The notes below the pieces were generated by a model. That model did no database searches, was not told the origin of the DNA, and worked only from the letters and a program-made list of their open reading frames with translations. DNA of 44,147 nucleotides from a bacterium (lineage in GTDB: Bacteria; Cyanobacteriota; Sericytochromatia; S15B-MN24; VGJW01). The position numbers were made by a program, and so were the translations under genes. The stretch lies in contig JAJXWQ010000022.1 of NCBI GenBank assembly GCA_021781555.1, positions 1 to 44,147 of the forward strand, written 5' to 3'. Below are positions 19,598-29,179 of this stretch, in pieces. Positions within the stretch are counted from its first letter, which is position 1, and each line of letters opens with the position of its first letter.

Positions 19598-20728
19598 CTA
19601 CACCGCCATGCGGTGCGTGGGGTTGGGATAGGCCGGGCTAAGGCTGCGCACCTGGCGGATGGATACGACTCCGGCGTGTCCCAGGGCCCTGGCCAGTGCG
19701 CCCTTGGCGACAACCTCCAGCTCGTCGGGGGCCATGGGAACGCGAGCGTTGAGTATGAGACGCGTGCTCCCTCCGGCGAAGGTCGCCGCACCCCGGATGG
19801 CCGGCGGGCGGTCCGTCGAGACCAGGTTGGCGTGGCAGAAGGTGTCCGCGTTGACCAGCGTGAGCTTGACGTGCGCAACCTCGAATCCGCCCTCGCGAGC
19901 CGCAGCGCCGAAGGGCAGGAGCACGGCATCGACGACGTCACGGCTGGCAAATCCGCCAGGGACATCGAGCTCGGCGGTCAGATTGAGCCAGCCCAGCTCC
20001 GCCTCTCCGGCGGCATAACGCTCGTAGTCGATCTCCTCGAGGATCTGCGGATGGGCCTCGGTCTTGGGACCGCTCCCGAGGACCCCGATCGCCTCGAGCC
20101 AGGGGGCCACGCCTTCCCCCGTGAGCGCGGAAATGGCGAACAGGCGTGCCTGCGGAGCCCGCTCCCTGAGCAGCGCCTCGAAACTGGCAAGCTCGCCTGG
20201 TTCCAGTAGATCGGTCTTGTTGAGGAGCACGATCTCGGCCTCCTCGAGCTGCTTGGCAAAGATGTACACCACGTCTTCGGAGAACCCGCGCTCGGACGCA
20301 GACATCCGCAAGGCCTGGCGAAGCCGGCGCGGGTCCACGAGCACGCTGAACGGAGCGACGCTGAAGCGATCGCCGTGCAGACGCTGCAGGGGCGCGATCA
20401 CGGTGGCCGAAACGTCCGTGCAACTCCCCACCGGCTCGCCGAGGATCACGTCCGGATCGCGCTCTTTGATGAGGCGATCGGAGGCGTCGAGGAGCTGATC
20501 GAAGCGGCAGCAGAAACAGCCCCCGGCGACCTCTTCGACCGAGCCCCCGGCAGCGGAGAGGATCTGGGTGTCCACGAGGTTCTCGGCCTGGTCGTTCGTG
20601 ATCAGGCCAACATCCGCCTGCGCGTCCGTGAGGAGCTTGGCGGCGCACCTGAGCAGCGTCGTCTTGCCGGCCCCGAGGAACCCTCCGACGAAGACCAGAT
20701 GGGTCTTGCGCAGGTTGAATTCAAGCAT
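19598..20728 (-). CDS. CobW/COG0523-type metallochaperone GTPase
   Basis: A 376-aa G3E GTPase. P-loop GGFLGAGKTTLLR (15-27), metal site GGCFCC (CxCC at 71-74), NKTDLLE for guanine recognition, and a C-terminal CobW_C-like domain with a Leu/Val-rich core. COG0523 proteins load Zn, Co, Fe or other metals onto client enzymes. The usual ExP motif appears as GEPVG. GAGGAG precedes the ATG at 20728. Last gene of the methyltransferase-peptide-radical SAM group, 117 nt after the thioredoxin fusion with a large hairpin between; its client may be one of those enzymes. Confidence 0.88.
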   Translation of the reverse strand: MLEFNLRKTHLVFVGGFLGAGKTTLLRCAAKLLTDAQADVGLITNDQAENLVDTQILSAAGGSVEEVAGGCFCCRFDQLLDASDRLIKERDPDVILGEPVGSCTDVSATVIAPLQRLHGDRFSVAPFSVLVDPRRLRQALRMSASERGFSEDVVYIFAKQLEEAEIVLLNKTDLLEPGELASFEALLRERAPQARLFAISALTGEGVAPWLEAIGVLGSGPKTEAHPQILEEIDYERYAAGEAELGWLNLTAELDVPGGFASRDVVDAVLLPFGAAAREGGFEVAHVKLTLVNADTFCHANLVSTDRPPAIRGAATFAGGSTRLILNARVPMAPDELEVVAKGALARALGHAGVVSIRQVRSLSPAYPNPTHRMAV

Positions 20729-20785
20729 CGAAGTTCTCCTCTGGAGGCCCCGCAGCGGGATCGCGATGGGGGCGGCGGTCGGCCG

Positions 20786-20833
20786 GGATGACCCGGATCC
20801 CGCCGCCAGCAGGCGACGGGGACCGGGTCATCC
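20786..20833 (-). other. Large inverted repeat between thioredoxin fusion and CobW-type genes
   Basis: Eleven-bp arms GGATGACCCGG and CCGGGTCATCC enclose 26 nt; outer bases add further pairing. It could terminate or process the operon transcript so that the GTPase is made at a lower level. Confidence 0.5.
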
Positions 20834-20845
20834 GGGATGGGCGGC

Positions 20846-22177
20846 CTACCGTCCTGCGGCCGCGAGCTCTGGCTTGGCCGGGGCGTCCGCCTCGATCTCG
20901 CTCGAAACGGCCATCGCGGCGATCGTCCCGTCGTTCACGGCAGTCGTCAGCTGGCGGTAGCGCTTGCTCCGGACATCGCCGATGGCGAACACGCCCGGGA
21001 CGCTCGTGTGCATGGCGTCGTCAACCTTGACGTAGCCAAAGTTGTCGAGTTCGAACGCGTTGGCGAACCCCTCGAGGTTGGGCTGCATGCCGACGAAGAT
21101 GAACACGCCATCGGTTGCCAGGACCTTGCGCTCGTGGGTCTTGAGGTCTTCGACCTCGACACGGTTGACCGTCTCTTGCCCCTCGGCGATGAAGGCCCGT
21201 GGCTCGTGCTCCAGGACGAACTTGATCTTCTCGTTGGCGAAGGCCTTCTCCTGCGCGGTCTTGTTGGCCTGCAGGTGATCGAACTGGTGCACGATCGTGA
21301 CGCTGCGGGCGAACTTGGTGATGAAAAGAGCCTCCTCGATGGCGGAGTTGCCGCCCCCGATGACGATCACGTCCCGATCCTGATAGTACTTGGCATCGCA
21401 CGTGGCGCAGTAGCTCAGGCCACGGCCCTTGTACTCGCGCTCGCCCACGATGCCCAGTGGCCGTGGCGACGATCCCGTGGCGACGAGGATCCTCCGGGCC
21501 TGGATGGTCTCGAGGCCGTCGATCTCGATCTCCTTCTTGTGGAGATCGATGCGGGTGATGTCGACCGCCTCGCGGAACTCGGCGCCAGCGTTCTTGGCCT
21601 GCAGTTGCATGTGATCCGCCAGCGCCCAGCCAGGCTGGGGCTCGGGGAATCCGGGGAAGTTGGAGACGGTATGCGTGATGGCGACGTTGCCACCGGCCAT
21701 CTGGATGTCGACGACGATCGTGCGAAGCCGCGCCTGCGCCAGGTAGATCCCGGCCGTGAGCCCGGCGGGTCCACCACCGAGGATCAGGACATCGCATTCG
21801 GTCCGGCGCGGCTGACGGCGGGCCTTCAAGGTCGCGACCCGATCGGCAGAAAGGAGCCCGTCGAGATTGCGCTCGAGGTCCGCCCGCTTGATGCCGCCCG
21901 TGAGGAACTCGCCGGTCCTCTGCCCGTCGCGATAGAACATCACGCTGGGCGAGGAGGTCACCCCGAGGTTGGCGGCGAGCTCGCGGTTGCCCTGCCGGAA
22001 GATCTTGATGAAGCGGATGTCGTCGCCGTAGAGCTCGGCCGCGCCCTCGTACTTGGTTGCCAGGGCCTCGCACGGCGCGCACTCGGTCGAGAAGAAATCC
22101 ACCACCACGGGCTTGTCGCTCTTGAGTACCAGCTCGTCGAAGCGGCTGGCGTCGATCTCCATCATCTTTTCGTTCAT
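20846..22177 (-). CDS. Thioredoxin-thioredoxin reductase fusion
   Basis: A 443-aa protein. Residues 1-110 are a thioredoxin fold with CAPC (33-36) in place of CGPC and the cis-Pro loop TSSPSVMFY. Residues about 125-430 are an NADPH-FAD thioredoxin reductase: FAD site GGGPAG (134-139), redox CATC (257-260), NADPH site GGGNSA, C-terminal GVFAIGDV. The known mycobacterial fusion has the opposite order (reductase then thioredoxin). The ATG at 22177 overlaps the TGA of the radical SAM gene (ATGA), so it is co-translated. In this context it may reduce disulfides or supply thiols for the peptide or its Cys-rich maturase; that role is inferred. Confidence 0.92.
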   Translation of the reverse strand: MNEKMMEIDASRFDELVLKSDKPVVVDFFSTECAPCEALATKYEGAAELYGDDIRFIKIFRQGNRELAANLGVTSSPSVMFYRDGQRTGEFLTGGIKRADLERNLDGLLSADRVATLKARRQPRRTECDVLILGGGPAGLTAGIYLAQARLRTIVVDIQMAGGNVAITHTVSNFPGFPEPQPGWALADHMQLQAKNAGAEFREAVDITRIDLHKKEIEIDGLETIQARRILVATGSSPRPLGIVGEREYKGRGLSYCATCDAKYYQDRDVIVIGGGNSAIEEALFITKFARSVTIVHQFDHLQANKTAQEKAFANEKIKFVLEHEPRAFIAEGQETVNRVEVEDLKTHERKVLATDGVFIFVGMQPNLEGFANAFELDNFGYVKVDDAMHTSVPGVFAIGDVRSKRYRQLTTAVNDGTIAAMAVSSEIEADAPAKPELAAAGR

Positions 22178-23523
22178 GAAAGGATCCTTTCCTTGGCGCC
22201 ATACAGCGCGATGCCCAGTCCGAGCAGTTCGTCGACCGGTCGGCAATCCGGTTCGGCGATCCTGCCGGTGCGATTCTTGGCCACCGCCCCGCAGCCCCCG
22301 CCGCAGGCGAGTTGCAGGTTGCAGGTGGAGCACGCCGAGATGGCCAGGACGTCGCGATCTTCCCAGGCCGCGATGGCCTCCCGATCCAGCGAAACCTCGG
22401 GATAGAAGGTTCCGAGGGACTCACCGGCCTTTCCGACCGTGGCCGTGCACGAATAAATCTGACCGGTGTAATCGAAGGCCCACTCCGTCTTGGTAGCCGG
22501 GCAGCTGTCGAAGAGCGGCTCCGGGAGCTCGCCGTTGTCGAACAGGAACCGCGCCAGGCTGAACGCAGGCCGGTGGAAATCCAGAACCTCCGGGTGCTCG
22601 CCGATGAGCTGGTAGAGCGCCTGGTAGAGTTCGATACGCGAGTAGAGCTGACCGGGCGCACCGTGGCAGTGGTGCAACTCGTAGTTGCGGCCGAGCTGGG
22701 TCTTGAAGAGCGGGTGGCCGATCCAGCCGTGCTCCCGGGCGAGCTCGGCAAGGGCCGGCAACGCCTCAAGATTCTGCCGATCCACCACGGCGCGGAGATT
22801 GACGGGGAACCCCTGCTCGAGGGCCGCATCGATGCCCCGCACGACCGACCGGAAGCTGCCCGTTCCGCCACGCAAGGGCCGCCGGCTGTCGTGCACCGCC
22901 TCGGGCCCGTCCAGCGTGATCTGGAGCTCGCGGATGTGCGCCTCACCGAGCAGCGGCAGGTAGCTCTCGAGCTCGTGGCCGTTGGTCACGATGGCCAGAT
23001 CCAGTCCCGCGGCTGCAGTCCCCCGGACCAGGCTCGTGATGCTCTCGCGCTGCGCCGGGCCTGCCAGCAAGGGCTCGCCGCCAAAGAGCGTGACGTACTT
23101 GCGGCGCCCGGCGAATGCGGTGCGGACGTGAGCGAAGAAAGCATCCACGACGGCCGGGTCGAGCGGCTTCCTGGAGGCCTCGTAAGGCGCCTGATAACAA
23201 TAACTGCAGGCGAAGTTACAGGCGTACCACGGGGCGAAGAACAGCTGGACCTCGTCGTTCTGGCGAGCCTCCAGCGCATCGAGGTAAGCCTGGCGGAACC
23301 GCTTGCGCTCCGCCTCGGGATCCACCAGGTAGCCCTTGCCGGCCCAGGCGGCCGCGTCGACAATCGTGCCGGTGCGCAGTGCCTCGGCCTCTTCGGCGGA
23401 CAGGATGTCCGCCTGCCTCGAGAGGGGGTTCACGATGAACCAGCTGGGAGATCCCGGAACCGCGCCAACAATGTTGTGCCGGGACGGTTCGAGAGCCGCA
23501 GTTTCGCCAGGCTTGACCATCAT
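22174..23523 (-). CDS. Radical SAM/SPASM peptide-maturase-like enzyme
   Basis: A 449-aa enzyme. The radical SAM cluster motif CNFACSYC has Cys 102, 106 and 109, followed by GGEPLL and TNGHEL. The C-terminal SPASM region has a Cys at DSCPATK and one at YSCTA, then CSTCNLQLACGGGC, which matches CX2CX5CX3C, and a final Cys in PDCRP; it should hold two auxiliary Fe-S clusters. Such proteins install thioether, C-C or other links in ribosomal peptides. The N-terminal ~85 residues could be a peptide-recognition region. It starts 9 nt after a gene for a 36-aa Cys-containing peptide, the likely substrate, and overlaps the thioredoxin fusion by 4 nt. Confidence 0.92.
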   Translation of the reverse strand: MMVKPGETAALEPSRHNIVGAVPGSPSWFIVNPLSRQADILSAEEAEALRTGTIVDAAAWAGKGYLVDPEAERKRFRQAYLDALEARQNDEVQLFFAPWYACNFACSYCYQAPYEASRKPLDPAVVDAFFAHVRTAFAGRRKYVTLFGGEPLLAGPAQRESITSLVRGTAAAGLDLAIVTNGHELESYLPLLGEAHIRELQITLDGPEAVHDSRRPLRGGTGSFRSVVRGIDAALEQGFPVNLRAVVDRQNLEALPALAELAREHGWIGHPLFKTQLGRNYELHHCHGAPGQLYSRIELYQALYQLIGEHPEVLDFHRPAFSLARFLFDNGELPEPLFDSCPATKTEWAFDYTGQIYSCTATVGKAGESLGTFYPEVSLDREAIAAWEDRDVLAISACSTCNLQLACGGGCGAVAKNRTGRIAEPDCRPVDELLGLGIALYGAKERILS

Positions 23524-23532
23524 CGGAACGGC

Positions 23533-23643
23533 CTAATCGTGGCAGCCAGCCACGGCCCGCGACTGCTTGGCGCAGCACTGAGCCAAAGCCGGGGCCTGCG
23601 GTTGCCCGACCGTCGCGCCCGACGTCTTGATGAGTGATTGCAT
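23533..23643 (-). CDS. Candidate RiPP precursor peptide, 36 aa
   Basis: A short gene with a strong AAAAGGAGG ribosome site eight bases before its ATG, directly upstream of the radical SAM gene. The N-terminal half (MQSLIKTSGATVGQPQ) looks like a leader and the C-terminal part (APALAQCCAKQSRAVAGCHD) like a core. The core has Cys at 23, 24 and 34 and ends His-Asp. Small size, strong translation signal, Cys-rich end and a neighbouring SPASM enzyme are the hallmarks of a modified-peptide substrate. No known family is recognised. The product could be a thioether peptide or a metal/metalloid-binding peptide; neither is shown by sequence. Confidence 0.75.
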   Translation of the reverse strand: MQSLIKTSGATVGQPQAPALAQCCAKQSRAVAGCHD

Positions 23644-23810
23644 GACAGGTACCTCCTTTTCTGTTGAGACTGGAGCGCGATGCACGCTCCTCACGCGCTT
23701 GCACGTGACTGGAAAGCCGGACTGCCGGCCAAGACGCAGGATGAATGCAGCGGAAAGCTGGCGGTCGAACACAGCGGCAAAAGCCTCTTGCGGCCGGCGC
23801 GATCCCGAAG

Positions 23811-24467
23811 CTAGGACTTCGGCTTGAATCCTTTGAGCGTGATGCTGACGCACTGGATCTGGCCCTTGGGATACGGAGCACTCTCCTCGAGAACCCGCAC
23901 GCCGGGAAAACCCGCCTGTTCCAGGGTGGCCATGTAGACGGGCCGGGTGACGGCGCCCGCCCAGCACTCCGCGACGGCCTGGGGATCGTTCCGGTACGGC
24001 TCCGGGACCTCGTGTGTGGAGTAGATATCGCTCACCACGAACCGGCCCCCGGGCTTGAGAAGCCGGAAGAGCTCCTGCCAGACGGCGAGCTTGTCCCCTG
24101 CGTGGTTGATGGTGCAGTTGGAAATGATGAGGTCGAGGCTCCCGGATGGCAGGTCGATCGCCGAGAGTTCGGCCTGGATGAACTTGACGTTCTCGACGCC
24201 CAGCTTGGCCGCCGTCCGGCGTGCGGTCTCGAGCATGGCAGGCGTGAGATCCACTCCATAGGCGAATCCGGAACTCCCGACCGCCTCGGCCAGCCGCAGG
24301 ACATCCTGCCCCCGGCCACTCCCGAGATCCAGGCACACCTCCCCGGGCTGCGGCGCGGCCAGATTGATGGCGCCACCACAGCTCAGACAGCACGATCCTT
24401 CCGCCAGCTCGCCATAGCGCTCGTTGATGGCGAGTTCGAAGAGGGGCGCGGGATAGGATGGGGTCAT
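23811..24467 (-). CDS. ArsM-like SAM-dependent methyltransferase
   Basis: A 218-aa class I methyltransferase. SAM motif CLDLGSGRGQDVLRLAEAVG, then YGVDLTPAMLETA, SNCTINHAGDK and LLKPGGRFVVSDIY, with DPQAVAECWAGAVTR later. The SNCxxN..DK and ECxAGA segments match the conserved Cys-bearing regions of arsenite methyltransferases. An N-terminal SCCLSCGG (26-32) adds further thiols. ATG at 24467 has GGAGAGG before it. It is the first gene behind an operator-controlled promoter and lies 167 nt upstream of the precursor peptide. It could methylate arsenite or another metalloid, or act in peptide maturation; the Cys pattern favours a thiophilic substrate. Confidence 0.8.
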   Translation of the reverse strand: MTPSYPAPLFELAINERYGELAEGSCCLSCGGAINLAAPQPGEVCLDLGSGRGQDVLRLAEAVGSSGFAYGVDLTPAMLETARRTAAKLGVENVKFIQAELSAIDLPSGSLDLIISNCTINHAGDKLAVWQELFRLLKPGGRFVVSDIYSTHEVPEPYRNDPQAVAECWAGAVTRPVYMATLEQAGFPGVRVLEESAPYPKGQIQCVSITLKGFKPKS

Positions 24468-24551
24468 GACCTCTCCAGCTCTGGTGTGCGGCCGCCGGGT
24501 CCTGCCAGGCGATCGGACGCCTCTGCGAGACCTTGCGACAATGCTTGCCTG

Positions 24552-24580
24552 TAGCAATATTTGCTACCAGCAAATAGTAA
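24552..24580. promoter_or_regulatory. Operator 1, MarR-type palindrome
   Basis: TAGCAATATTTGCTA is a TAGCAA-N3-TTGCTA palindrome, followed by CCAGCAAATAGTAA. The 29 bp are 24/29 identical to the site at 26447-26475. It covers the -10 element and start region of the methyltransferase promoter, so binding should repress. Confidence 0.7.
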
Positions 24581-24602
24581 CCCGGAAGGGCCGCCTTGTC
24601 AA
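24574..24602 (-). promoter_or_regulatory. Promoter of methyltransferase-peptide operon
   Basis: On the minus strand: TTGACA (24602-24597), 17-bp spacer, TACTAT (24579-24574). Near-consensus sigma-70 promoter; the -10 overlaps operator 1. Confidence 0.75.
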
Positions 24603-24733: not shown

Positions 24734-25537
24734 TCACGCCAACAGGTACTGCATCGCTCCGGGAAGGCGGAACCGCCAGGCCTCTTCCTCGTGCTTGCCC
24801 TGGGGATCCGGCCGGAACAGATAATCGACCCCATCCTGAAGCCCCCGCGCCCGGAAGATGTCCACGAACTCGTCGGCATGCCGGAGCACGTGCCCGCAAG
24901 GGCATTCCATCCCCCCCGCGTCGAGGTAGAAGCGGGATCCCTCCGGGAAGGGGCTCTGCTCCATCAGGTCGTAGATGCGCCCGTGCTCCCCGCGCTCGAT
25001 CCCCAGGGTCGGCGACATCGCAAGGACCCTTCCGAACACGCCTGGGTGCCGAAGGAAGGCGTAGATCGACAGGAGAGCCCCGAGCGACGATCCACCGATC
25101 AGGGTATTCTCCCGCCCGGGCTTCAGGCGAAACTCCGAACGGGCCAGCGGAAGCAGGGCCTCGACGATCCAGTCCGCCATGATCTGGCCCCGGGCATCCG
25201 GGACGGACTCGGTCGACCACGGCGAGAGCGCGATCTCCCGCGAGCCTTCGGTGTGGATCGCCAGCACGACGGGAACCATGTCACCTTGGCAGTTCCGCCA
25301 GTCGAGCAGCTGGTGGAGGCGCCAGCCTCCCAGGTACGAACCCTCATCGTGGAACAGGTTCTGGCCGTCGAAGAGCACGGCGATCGCGTAGCTGGTCTCG
25401 GGGTGCTGATCGTAGCCGGCCGGAAGGTAGACCGACAGCGGATAGCGCCCAGGAAGCCCCGGGACCTCGAACCACGTGCCGGGCCTCAAGGTCCCTCGAT
25501 GCGCGGGGTCCAAGAGGAGTTCCTGACAGTCGGGCAC
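24734..25537 (-). CDS. Alpha/beta-hydrolase esterase (Fes/esterase D-like)
   Basis: A 267-aa PF00756-type esterase. Motifs: AVLFDGQNLFHDE, nucleophile elbow GGSSLG (148-153, Ser 151), FYLDAGGMEC (likely Asp) and GKHEEEAWR (His). It resembles the catalytic domain of enterochelin esterase and secreted acyl esterases, but no signal peptide is present, so it acts in the cytoplasm. GTG start at 25537 with GGGAGGT six bases upstream. Downstream of the rhodanese gene and probably in the MarR unit; the natural ester is unknown. Confidence 0.82.
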   Translation of the reverse strand: MPDCQELLLDPAHRGTLRPGTWFEVPGLPGRYPLSVYLPAGYDQHPETSYAIAVLFDGQNLFHDEGSYLGGWRLHQLLDWRNCQGDMVPVVLAIHTEGSREIALSPWSTESVPDARGQIMADWIVEALLPLARSEFRLKPGRENTLIGGSSLGALLSIYAFLRHPGVFGRVLAMSPTLGIERGEHGRIYDLMEQSPFPEGSRFYLDAGGMECPCGHVLRHADEFVDIFRARGLQDGVDYLFRPDPQGKHEEEAWRFRLPGAMQYLLA

Positions 25538-25592: not shown

Positions 25593-25943
25593 CTAGTGCG
25601 GCAAGCGGTGCAGCGGGCCGGCGTTGGTCACGTCCTGGAAGCCCGCCTTCTTGAACATCCGCGCCGCCAGCGCGGCCCGAGATCCCGAGTGGCAGTACAG
25701 CACGACCGGCTTGTCCCTCGCGAGCTTGCCGATCCCGGACGAAAGCTCTTGCAGGGGCAGGTTGATCGCCTCGGGGTAGGCCCCGCTCTTGAACTCCGCG
25801 GGAGTCCGGACATCCACCACGAGCGCGCCCGCGGCGAGCTTCTCCTGGACAAGCGCCAGGCTGGCGCGGGGAGCCAGGATCCGACGGATCGCTACGTAGC
25901 CGACGACGGCAACGGCCCCGATGGCCAAGTTTGTGACGGTCAT
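25593..25943 (-). CDS. Membrane-anchored rhodanese
   Basis: A 116-aa protein. Residues 1-24 form one transmembrane helix (TVTNLAIGAVAVVGYVAI), then a single rhodanese domain with VVDVRTPAEFKSGAYPEAIN and active-site loop CHSGSR (Cys 84). Rhodaneses carry sulfane sulfur as a persulfide. AGGAG lies five bases before the ATG. It is 15 nt after the MarR gene, so the two are co-transcribed, pointing to sulfur or thiol stress as the regulon's theme. Confidence 0.88.
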   Translation of the reverse strand: MTVTNLAIGAVAVVGYVAIRRILAPRASLALVQEKLAAGALVVDVRTPAEFKSGAYPEAINLPLQELSSGIGKLARDKPVVLYCHSGSRAALAARMFKKAGFQDVTNAGPLHRLPH

Positions 25944-25958
25944 TCTTACTCCTGAACG

Positions 25959-26411
25959 TTATTCGCTAGCACCGCTGACAGAATCGGCGGAAGGAGGTGA
26001 TACCGGGTGCACCGAATCGATGACACGGAGCAAGAGGGCGATGGCCTCCTCCACCGCCAGGAGCTCCTCTCCCGTGAGCTGACTGGCGAGGGAATGCTCG
26101 CAGCTGTCCACGCAGGTCCGGAGATGCTCCTGGATCTCGCGGCCAGCAGGGGTCAGTTCGAGCAGGCTGATGCGGCGATCGTGGGAATCCGGTTGGCGCT
26201 GGATGATGCCCTTGCGCACCAGTCCGTCGATCACGCGGCTGCCGCGTGAGGCGGAAAGTCCCACCGCCCGGCAAAGCTCCCCGGCCGAGGTCGGCGTGTC
26301 GGTAGGGAAGGCTGCCACGAAACCGAACTCGGTCTCGCCCAGGTTGACCTGAGCGTGGACACCGGACTGGAGCCGATCGCAGCAGGACCGCAGGCGCATG
26401 AGGTTGGCCAT
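25959..26411 (-). CDS. MarR-family repressor with Cys pairs
   Basis: A 150-aa MarR-type regulator. The winged helix is TSAGELCRAVGLSASRGSRV, with wing DSHDRRISLLELTPAG. It holds several Cys: RSCCD near the N-terminus, ELC in the HTH, and CVDSC in the dimerisation helix, which could sense thiol-reactive compounds or metalloids. The ATG at 26411 is used because the frame's earlier start (26468) lies within the promoter/operator. It probably represses both its own unit and the methyltransferase-peptide unit through the twin operators. Confidence 0.85.
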   Translation of the reverse strand: MANLMRLRSCCDRLQSGVHAQVNLGETEFGFVAAFPTDTPTSAGELCRAVGLSASRGSRVIDGLVRKGIIQRQPDSHDRRISLLELTPAGREIQEHLRTCVDSCEHSLASQLTGEELLAVEEAIALLLRVIDSVHPVSPPSADSVSGASE

Positions 26412-26446
26412 CAAGGCCCCGGTGCGCCGCTCCTCTGGCTTGCCCC

Positions 26447-26475
26447 TAGCAATTGTTGCCACTAGCAAATAATAA
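26447..26475. promoter_or_regulatory. Operator 2, MarR-type palindrome
   Basis: TAGCAATTGTTGCCA followed by CTAGCAAATAATAA, the partner of operator 1. One base breaks the palindrome (TTGCCA for TTGCTA). It overlaps the -10 element of the MarR promoter, the same geometry as at 24552. Confidence 0.7.
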
Positions 26476-26497
26476 TCCAGCTCGAAGCTCGCGTCAA
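26469..26497 (-). promoter_or_regulatory. Promoter of MarR-rhodanese-esterase unit
   Basis: On the minus strand: TTGACG (26497-26492), 17-bp spacer, TATTAT (26474-26469). The transcript begins near 26462, about 50 nt before the ATG at 26411. Confidence 0.75.
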
Positions 26498-26540
26498 CTC
26501 CCCTCGTTCCCCTCCGGCCTCCGCTCTGGCCAGGAGCGCA

Positions 26541-26912
26541 TCAAGACGGCGGATCGCCCCCGGGCTGCCGGGCCCCCCGGTGCTGCATGCGCCAGGCCGC
26601 TTCCTCGTACGCCAGGATGCTCTCGTCCAGCCGGTCCGTACCGAGGGGGAGAGGAGAGATTTCGGCACTGTCCGCCGGGCCCGGCGGACGATCCAGGGGC
26701 GCCCGCCTCTTGGCCTGCAGCCGCTGGCGATACCCTTGCAGACGCATCCGGGCCCGCTCCCCGCGAACCAGGAGCTGCCGCACGTTCTGGAAGTTCTCGG
26801 GGCCCCGCACGGCCATCACCGGACGGATCGGAGAGATCGGTCGAACGGGGGGAATCTCGTCATCCAGCATCGAACCGAGTTGTACCCCGTGGCCTCGCCA
26901 GCGCATCTCCAT
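26541..26912 (-). CDS. Small basic protein, unknown (tentative)
   Basis: A frame of 123 codons with high third-position GC like neighbouring genes. The likely start is 26912 or, more plausibly, the ATG at 26870 (MLDDEIPPVRPISPIRPVM). A basic helix follows (FQNVRQLLVRGERARMRLQ), then a Pro-rich tail. No domain is recognised and no good ribosome site is visible. It lies just upstream of the MarR promoter on the same strand. It may be a real lineage-specific gene or chance coding. Confidence 0.4.
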   Translation of the reverse strand: MEMRWRGHGVQLGSMLDDEIPPVRPISPIRPVMAVRGPENFQNVRQLLVRGERARMRLQGYRQRLQAKRRAPLDRPPGPADSAEISPLPLGTDRLDESILAYEEAAWRMQHRGARQPGGDPPS

Positions 26913-27061
26913 GGCCTTTATCCAGCGTGTGCGCGGGCCGTCCTGGAGAGCGCTGGCTCGAGGTACCGATCCCGTCCGGGGCGATCGGACCCTTGCCGGA
27001 ACCGCCCGACCAGGGGAGGCCCCTGGCGGCCAATCACGGTATGCTTCCCTGGGCCTGGTTC

Positions 27062-27156
27062 GGTGTGAACGGATCCCTCTGCGCGGTCACTGCGCCGCGC
27101 AACCGGGTCCCGTTGGACTCCTCGGGCCCGATCCCGGCTCGGCGAAACCGCTCCGG
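27062..27156 (-). repeat. Palindromic repeat, diverged copy
   Basis: Core GAACGGATCCCTCTGCGCGG to CCGGGTCCCGTTGG, then tail CTCGGGCCCGATCCCGGC and GGCGAAACCGCTCC. It lies upstream of the P-type ATPase, one of the few copies not at a gene 3' end. The rest of the gene-poor stretch 26913-27277 shows no other clear element. Confidence 0.85.
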
Positions 27157-27277
27157 GCCAGATCCGTCGGAAGAAAGGCGAACCTTGGAAGCCTCCCCTC
27201 ATCTTGGACTTCGCGGCTCCACGGCCGCCAGAGGACCCGGTGTCGCCAGGCCGGGCGAGAGCCCGCGCCCTCCTGTA

Positions 27278-29179
27278 GTGGCGACATCCGACCGGATCCG
27301 GATCGCGGCCGTGGCCCTGGTCGCGGCCGGCACCTGGTTCCACCTCTGGCCGCAGGACTTGACGGCCCGGTGGCTCTCGGCTTGGCCGCAGATCGCCCAC
27401 CTGGATGCGATAGCCGCCGCAGCGACACTGGTCGGCGGCTATCCGATCTTCAAGGAGGCCCTTGGGGCCCTGAGCCGGCGCCGGATGACGATGGAGCTGT
27501 CCATGACCCTCGCCCTGGTGGCCGCCCTGGCCATCGGGCAGGCCTTCACGGCCCTGGTGATCACACTGTTCGTGCTCATCGCCGAGGTTCTCGAGGACCT
27601 CACGGTCGACCGGGGACGGCGGGCCATCCGCGATCTGGTCGACCTCTTGCCGCGCCAGGTGGTCGTCCGGGACGGGGAGGACCCGCGCTCGGTGGCCATT
27701 GCCGAGGTGGTTCCCGGCGACACCGTGCTGGTCAGACCCGGGTCACGGATTCCCGTCGACGGCCGCGTGGTGCAAGGAACGACCTTCGTCGACCAGTCCT
27801 CCGTGACCGGCGAGTCGGTACCGGTCGAGAAGATCGTCGGGAGCGCTGTCTATGCCGGCACCCTCAACCAGTCCGGGGCGATCGAGGTCGAGGTCGCGAG
27901 CATCGGCCCCGATACGGCGTTCGGCCAGATCGTCCAGGCCGTCGAGCGAGCCGAGAAGAACCGGGCTCCGCTCCAGAAGACGGCCGATCGCCTCTCCGGC
28001 TACCTGGTCTACTTCGCCCTGGCCGCCGCTGCGCTGACCTACTTGCTTACCCGCGACCCCCGATCGACCCTCTCGGTGATCCTCGTCGCGGGCGCGTGCG
28101 GCGTCGCAGCCGGAACCCCCCTCGCCCTGCTTGGCGGGATCGGCCAGGCGGCGCGCAGGGGGGCGATCGTCAAGGGCGGCCTCTTCCTCGAGCAGCTTGC
28201 GGGCGTCGACACGATCGTCCTGGACAAGACCGGGACGCTGACGCTCGGAGACCTCGCGGTGGTCGAGGTCTGCCCGGCCGTGGGCGTGAGCGACAGTGCC
28301 CTGATCGAGGCCGCCGCCAGCGCCGAACTGCGATCCGAGCACCCCCTCGGCGCGGCAATCCTCGAACGGGCCGGCACGGGCAAGCCACCCGAGCCAGATC
28401 GCTTCGACTACGTACCCGGAAGAGGCATCCGCTGTGCCGTCGGCGACGAGGAGATCCTGGTCGGCACCCGAGCCCTGCTCGACGAAACCGGCGTCGCGGA
28501 CATTCCGGAGTTGCTCGGCGCCGAGCACCTCACCCAGGTCCTGGTCGCTCGCGGTGGGAAATACCTCGGCCGGATCCTCGTGGCCGACACGCTGCGACCG
28601 GAAGCCGCACGCGCGGTGTCCGAACTGCATCGGGCGGGCTACCGGCTCGTCCTGTTGACGGGAGACGCCTGGTCCGTGGCGCGCCACGTCGGCCGGGATC
28701 TGGGGATTTCCGAGATCGAGGCCGAGCTCTTGCCGGCCGACAAGGAAGCCCGGATCCAGGCGCTGGTTGCAGCCGGGCACAAGGTCGCCATGATCGGGGA
28801 CGGGCTGAACGACGCCCCGGCCCTGGTGCAGGCCAGCGTGGGTATCGCGATGGGAACCGGCGCTGACGTCGCCCAGGAAGCAGCCGACATTCTCCTGCTG
28901 GGAAACGATCTGTTGAAGTTCGTCGAAACGATCCAGATCGCGCGGCGGACCCGCGCCGTCATCTTCTTCAACTTCGGCGGCACCCTGGTCGTGGATGCTC
29001 TGGGAATGGCCCTGGCGGGGTTCGGGTTCCTGAACCCGCTCCTGGCCGCGCTGATCCACGTGACGTCGGAGCTGGTATTCATCCTGAACTCTGCGCGGCT
29101 CTCGCCCGCGCTCGCCAGACGGCCTGGAGCGAGCACGCCGCCTCGCGGCAGGGGGGCCGCGCAACCGGGCCCCGTCTGA
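27278..29179 (+). CDS. P-type (P1B-like) cation-transporting ATPase
   Basis: About 633 aa from GTG 27278, a tentative start with no clear ribosome site. TGES motif SVTGESVPV, phosphorylation site DKTGTLT (Asp 316), SEHPLG (P1B HP motif), GDGLNDAP. The transmembrane helix before the phosphorylation site reads GACGVAAGTPLALLGG, so the P1B CPC or SPC ion motif is replaced by ACG. No N-terminal metal-binding domain is present. It should move a metal or other cation, but the substrate class is not among the standard CPx types. The last ~10 residues and the TGA come from a palindromic repeat, so the C-terminus seems to have been altered by repeat insertion. Confidence 0.88.
   Translation: MATSDRIRIAAVALVAAGTWFHLWPQDLTARWLSAWPQIAHLDAIAAAATLVGGYPIFKEALGALSRRRMTMELSMTLALVAALAIGQAFTALVITLFVLIAEVLEDLTVDRGRRAIRDLVDLLPRQVVVRDGEDPRSVAIAEVVPGDTVLVRPGSRIPVDGRVVQGTTFVDQSSVTGESVPVEKIVGSAVYAGTLNQSGAIEVEVASIGPDTAFGQIVQAVERAEKNRAPLQKTADRLSGYLVYFALAAAALTYLLTRDPRSTLSVILVAGACGVAAGTPLALLGGIGQAARRGAIVKGGLFLEQLAGVDTIVLDKTGTLTLGDLAVVEVCPAVGVSDSALIEAAASAELRSEHPLGAAILERAGTGKPPEPDRFDYVPGRGIRCAVGDEEILVGTRALLDETGVADIPELLGAEHLTQVLVARGGKYLGRILVADTLRPEAARAVSELHRAGYRLVLLTGDAWSVARHVGRDLGISEIEAELLPADKEARIQALVAAGHKVAMIGDGLNDAPALVQASVGIAMGTGADVAQEAADILLLGNDLLKFVETIQIARRTRAVIFFNFGGTLVVDALGMALAGFGFLNPLLAALIHVTSELVFILNSARLSPALARRPGASTPPRGRGAAQPGPV

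Follow-up and report, generated by a model that had tools for sequence, protein, structure and literature searches.

A conserved operon joining a three-cysteine peptide and a radical SAM/SPASM enzyme to an ArsM-like methyltransferase, with a probable link to metalloids

In this study we examined a 44,147-nucleotide stretch of bacterial DNA (GenBank assembly GCA_021781555.1, contig JAJXWQ010000022.1, positions 1 to 44,147 of the forward strand; hereafter the window; GTDB lineage Bacteria, Cyanobacteriota, Sericytochromatia, S15B-MN24, VGJW01), in which a very short peptide gene directly precedes the gene of a radical S-adenosylmethionine (SAM) enzyme of the SPASM type. An earlier note, made from the sequence alone, had proposed here a locus for a ribosomally synthesized and post-translationally modified peptide (RiPP), built from a combination of families that it did not recognise. 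Transcribed from the minus strand, the genes follow one another in this order:

23811..24467, minus strand: ArsM-like SAM methyltransferase, 218 amino acids, with the As(III)-ligand cysteines of ArsM (C30, C118 and C168)
23533..23643, minus strand: precursor-like peptide, 36 amino acids, with three cysteines, the C-terminal sequence QCCAKQSRAVAGCHD and a strong ribosome site, AGGAGG
22174..23523, minus strand: radical SAM/SPASM enzyme, 449 amino acids, with C102-x3-C106-x2-C109, SPASM cysteines 341, 359, 398, 401, 407, 411 and 427, and a beta3-alpha3 N-terminal region (residues 18-88) of the RiPP recognition element (RRE) type
20846..22177, minus strand: fusion of a thioredoxin (CAPC) with a thioredoxin reductase (CATC), 443 amino acids, assigned by its Pfam domains
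19598..20728, minus strand: CobW-type GTPase, 376 amino acids, a neighbour specific to the genus and outside the conserved core

The peptide reads MQSLIKTSGATVGQPQAPALAQCCAKQSRAVAGCHD, and the DNA immediately before its gene is AAAAGGAGGTACCTGTC. Nine bases separate its stop codon from the radical SAM gene, which in turn overlaps the gene of the thioredoxin-thioredoxin reductase fusion by ATGA; the ribosome site, the spacing, the fusion and the overlap are all as the earlier note had described them. Pfam domains were assigned with bit scores of 68 (Radical_SAM), 66.5 and 184.5 (thioredoxin and Pyr_redox_2 in the fusion) and 88 (cobW). The RNA elements of the window are two tRNAs, both distant from the operon. 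No relative was found on viral contigs and no match above about 30% identity in a plasmid search, and a virus, plasmid or mobile-element setting was consequently rejected.

One genome per GTDB species was scanned for homologues with an alignment of the enzyme, leaving the peptide information unused. The scan returned 40 loci, all from genomes titled metagenome-assembled, and the peptide lies directly upstream of the enzyme gene, on the same strand, in 38 of the 38 intact family members, which span at least six phyla (Bacteroidota, Myxococcota, Spirochaetota, Fibrobacterota, Ignavibacteriota and Cyanobacteriota). In these loci the peptide ends in QCC[AST]KxSxxxxGCHD followed by the stop codon. 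Two loci of the scan have no peptide: L046, because it is a remnant with an N-terminally broken enzyme and a missing methyltransferase, and L051, whose enzyme is distant and unrelated. Among 80 further genomes, sampled separately from one family, the enzyme occurs in 17 and the peptide in 16 of these, the remaining enzyme match being N-terminally incomplete. Furthermore, a degenerate DNA motif for the peptide matches exactly three of the 386 genomes of the window's phylum, namely the three that have the enzyme, while the same motif read backwards matches none. The presence of the peptide at this locus is therefore not a matter of chance. The earlier note would have counted the RiPP proposal refuted if related genomes had no conserved peptide at this position or if the SPASM homologues were always linked to another substrate; the comparison shows neither. 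A conserved precursor gene adjoining the enzyme supports that proposal, in which the peptide would be the one modified.

Among 18 diverse peptides the invariant residues are A-Q-C-C-x-K-x-S-x4-G-C-H-D. The N-terminus (MKSL[VI]KK) is similar in most of them, and the middle differs in both length and sequence, a pattern that we read as a leader followed by a nearly unchanging core. The peptide occurs in a genome of the same genus and in one from another family of the order, the latter with the peptide MRPITVVDIKQNRSCCGTADEKVAQCCSKSSKLVAGCHD and an enzyme only 40% identical. Over pairs, single-base codon differences were synonymous in 4441 cases and amino-acid-changing in 469, a ratio that is biased because the search pattern fixes the amino acid at 8 of the 15 compared codons. 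No family in NCBIfam or Pfam, the curated precursor models included, matched the peptide. To our knowledge, very few RiPP-type peptides have cores that are constant across phyla, and those known are mostly cofactors or metal ligands. Some variation was seen around this common form: one myxococcal genome has the peptide gene in three differing copies (loci L015 and L016), and L047 and L049 constitute a divergent subfamily with an enzyme 36-40% identical, a peptide with an additional SCC upstream, and an operon that includes a gene of the DUF5714 family; this family has the double selenoprotein MbdU (NF045648, 121 bits) as a relative.

The peptide and its enzyme belong to a larger unit of fixed order, in which the methyltransferase is followed by the peptide, the radical SAM enzyme and the thioredoxin-thioredoxin reductase. 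The methyltransferase and the fusion were each found at 70% or more of their length in 36 of the 40 loci. The pairwise distances of the radical SAM enzyme and of the methyltransferase are correlated (0.91, Mantel P = 0.001), and the two therefore travel together. The window's radical SAM enzyme clusters with copies from Myxococcota and Fibrobacterota, away from the second cyanobacterial copy, a grouping suggestive of horizontal transfer. The genes that recur in the flanks are DUF1847 (12 loci), a separate thioredoxin (a few) and DUF5714 (two); the rest are housekeeping genes unrelated between loci, and recurrent neighbours were rejected as a clue to function. DUF1847, a cysteine-rich family of unassigned function, lies between the radical SAM and thioredoxin-thioredoxin reductase genes (e.g. 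L045, 8345-8923). The CobW-type GTPase had been listed by the earlier note among the partners; its gene is present, and a tblastn comparison with all loci matched only the other genome of the same genus, so that it is a local addition and was discarded as a component of the system. Protease and transporter or exporter families do not recur around the operon loci, nor is any immunity gene conserved; a protease or exporter is not required in every RiPP system.

SPASM enzymes follow the pattern CX3CX2C, then CX9-15GX4C, CX2CX5CX3C and a final C. The full set of cysteines claimed for this enzyme is present, and C102, C106 and C109 (CX3CX2C), C341-x12-G354-x4-C359, C398, C401, C407, C411 and C427 are invariant in 29 sequences. 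An AlphaFold2 model (predicted local distance difference test, pLDDT, 88) is nearest to CteB (5wgg, 5why), a maturase that forms thioethers and with which it aligns over 452-475 columns, and next to SuiB (5v1t), the two being maturases of the ranthipeptide/sactipeptide kind; residues 18-88 of the model take the beta3-alpha3 arrangement of RRE domains. Its best-scoring curated relatives are CefB (NF038107, 106 bits for a cut-off of 600), TIGR04463 (101 for 525), the geopeptide maturase TIGR04280 (99 for 400) and PapB (97 for 340), and the enzyme is not a member of any of these families because it scores far below their cut-offs.

The methyltransferase had been called ArsM-like, and its best match in NCBIfam is indeed the arsenite methyltransferase NF008823. 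The structures nearest to its model (pLDDT 91) are CmArsM, CrArsM and human AS3MT (4fr0, 5evj and 8xt7). C30, C118 and C168 are invariant in 24 methyltransferases of the family and align with 5evj and with 4kw7/CmArsM, whose As(III)-holding cysteines we take to be Cys72, Cys174 and Cys224.

Upstream of the operon, an operator-like palindrome recurs at two other genes of the genome:

24545..24574, strand not assigned: operator-like palindrome TTGCCTGTAGCAATATTTGCTACCAGCAAA, lying about 80 bases ahead of the start of the methyltransferase gene
26440..26469, strand not assigned: operator-like site, second copy, located 29 bases ahead of the start codon of the MarR gene
25959..26411, minus strand: MarR-family regulator, candidate regulator of the operon through the common operator-like site
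L084, 5293-6081, on another contig of the same genome: aquaporin-family channel gene of the major intrinsic protein (MIP) type, whose promoter contains the 30-bp palindrome in its best copy

The 30-bp palindrome, whose consensus was derived from these same three sites, occurs exactly three times in the genome (at the operon, the MarR gene and the MIP channel), and its backwards control nowhere; its 15-bp form alone is not enriched genome-wide (3 per strand, against 8 for the backwards control). Since the site is common to the MarR gene and the operon, the MarR protein is a candidate regulator of the latter. No palindrome upstream of the methyltransferase is held in common by the other loci. 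At L050, the gene immediately upstream of the operon encodes an ArsR/SmtB metalloregulator, with a score that exceeds the curated cut-off. MIP channels occur in ars operons and transport arsenite (PMC4435449; PMC6205960). The palindrome at the MIP gene and the ArsR gene are thus two independent single-genome hints of a metalloid. Between the operon and the MarR gene lie an esterase gene (24734-25537) and a rhodanese-like gene (25593-25943), neither kept elsewhere. Divergent from the MarR gene, the window also encodes a heavy-metal P1B-type ATPase (26453-29179; TIGR01525, 517 bits), at a distance of about 1 kb from this palindrome, with ACGVAAGTP in the sixth helix in place of the usual CPC.

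The reading that we favour, to which we give about an even chance, is that of a RiPP-type operon whose modified peptide is kept in the cell and acts with the methyltransferase and the thioredoxin system on a thiophilic metalloid, for which As(III) and Sb(III) are the likeliest candidates. The radical SAM enzyme would bind the conserved N-terminus of the peptide (the MKSL[VI]KK type), probably via its RRE-like region, and would modify the QCCxKxSxxxxGCHD end, most likely by forming a thioether or a similar bond at one or more cysteines. The matured product may well remain inside the cell, because conserved genes for a protease, an exporter or immunity are absent and the core is nearly constant, as one would expect of a cofactor or a metal ligand and not of an antibiotic. 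The peptide would then be a carrier or ligand of the metalloid, the ArsM-like methyltransferase, with its three-thiolate metalloid site retained, may act on the bound element, and the dedicated NADPH-thioredoxin reductase fusion would hold the thiols reduced. A bolder form of this scheme, improbable in our estimate, makes the product an organo-metalloid peptide or cofactor, in which arsenic or antimony is carried on the three cysteines of the peptide, or is joined to carbon through the action of the radical SAM enzyme, and is methylated by the ArsM-like partner; it is conceivable because radical SAM enzymes work with ArsM in the synthesis of arsinothricin and arsenosugars (PMC8552651).

Several observations weigh against a metalloid function. 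The methyltransferase of the window scores 188.9 bits against NF008823, below the cut-off of 263, and all operon copies fall between 157 and 209 bits. The list of flanking families includes neither ars efflux nor arsenate reductase (ArsC) genes. A single genome supplies the MarR and MIP evidence, and the ArsR gene is present at one locus of 38. Canonical ArsM is encoded elsewhere in 8 of 16 sampled genomes, where simple arsenite methylation by the operon would be redundant, and this suggests a specialised, non-redundant role for the operon methyltransferase. The same lack of ars genes in the flanks and the same separate ArsM in half of the sampled genomes speak for the main rival, in which the peptide itself is the substrate of the methyltransferase: the radical SAM enzyme would cross-link the cysteines, the methyltransferase would add a methyl group to S, N or O, and the thioredoxin system would serve maturation, yielding a redox cofactor or signal with no metalloid involved. 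A SPASM maturase with an adjoining precursor and a core conserved as in cofactor RiPPs also agree with such a scheme, but a peptide methylase would have no need of the As(III)-ligand cysteines, which are conserved as a complete set of three, the loci lack a conserved protease or exporter, and in the window's genome the operator is common to a MIP channel. On balance we consider this rival unlikely, if worth serious attention.

Another explanation keeps the metalloid and gives up the maturation, the peptide being an unmodified or transiently modified small thiol protein, such as a metallothionein or ArsD-type chaperone, while the radical SAM enzyme acts elsewhere, for instance on the metalloid, in the manner of ArsL and ArsS, which work on arsenic alongside ArsM (PMC8552651). 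The very short peptide with vicinal cysteines and no conserved processing gene would suit this role, and one of the 18 peptides matches an ArsD-related vicinal cysteine protein, weakly and at chance level (E = 0.097). ArsL, however, has three conserved cysteines only (PMC8552651), whereas a full SPASM set and an RRE-like region, both hallmarks of peptide maturases, are found here, and the conserved N-terminus of the peptide is typical of a leader; we regard this explanation as rather improbable. That the small open reading frame is not a product of the system and its neighbourhood accidental has its short length as the sole point in its favour and has practically no chance of being true, as the comparison refutes it by the complete occurrence at intact loci, the strict co-occurrence at genome level and the excess of synonymous changes, biased as that ratio is.

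The favoured operon departs from each known system with which it can be compared. CteB and SuiB, its nearest solved folds, likewise combine a SPASM enzyme with an N-terminal recognition region, putative in the operon enzyme, and an adjoining short cysteine precursor, yet identity is only 14-17%, the core is almost invariant across phyla in the operon described here, and an ArsM-like methyltransferase and a thioredoxin-thioredoxin reductase replace exporter, protease or immunity genes. ArsM and AS3MT share fold, sequence and three cysteines with a methyltransferase that, unlike them, is short and coupled with a peptide and a SPASM enzyme. In the thio(seleno)oxazole RiPP system SbtA/SbtM, which Lewis et al. 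2021 are said to have described, a radical SAM maturase reportedly acts on Cys or Sec of a small peptide; we know of no ArsM-like enzyme or thioredoxin-thioredoxin reductase in that system. Arsinothricin arsQML and the arsenosugar pair ArsM/ArsS also place a radical SAM enzyme beside ArsM, but ArsL has no cysteines beyond the three of its cluster and does not act on a peptide, in contrast to a SPASM enzyme with a ribosomal peptide (PMC8552651). No paper was found on the peptide motif, on DUF1847 or DUF5714, or on a combination of SPASM enzyme, arsenic and RiPP. The thiol- or metalloid-binding product anticipated in the earlier note is backed by the three ArsM cysteines and, in this genome, by the operator common to the MIP channel, with arsenic or antimony as its presumptive target.

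Taken together, these results describe a SPASM-type RiPP system with a new precursor family, a new set of partners and a probable link to metalloids. The compact four-gene operon makes maturation, metalloid binding and methyltransferase specificity directly testable in E. coli. If the favoured reading is true, the pairing of this conserved three-cysteine peptide with an ArsM-like methyltransferase would bring RiPP chemistry and metalloid biology together, a connection that no source we found describes.

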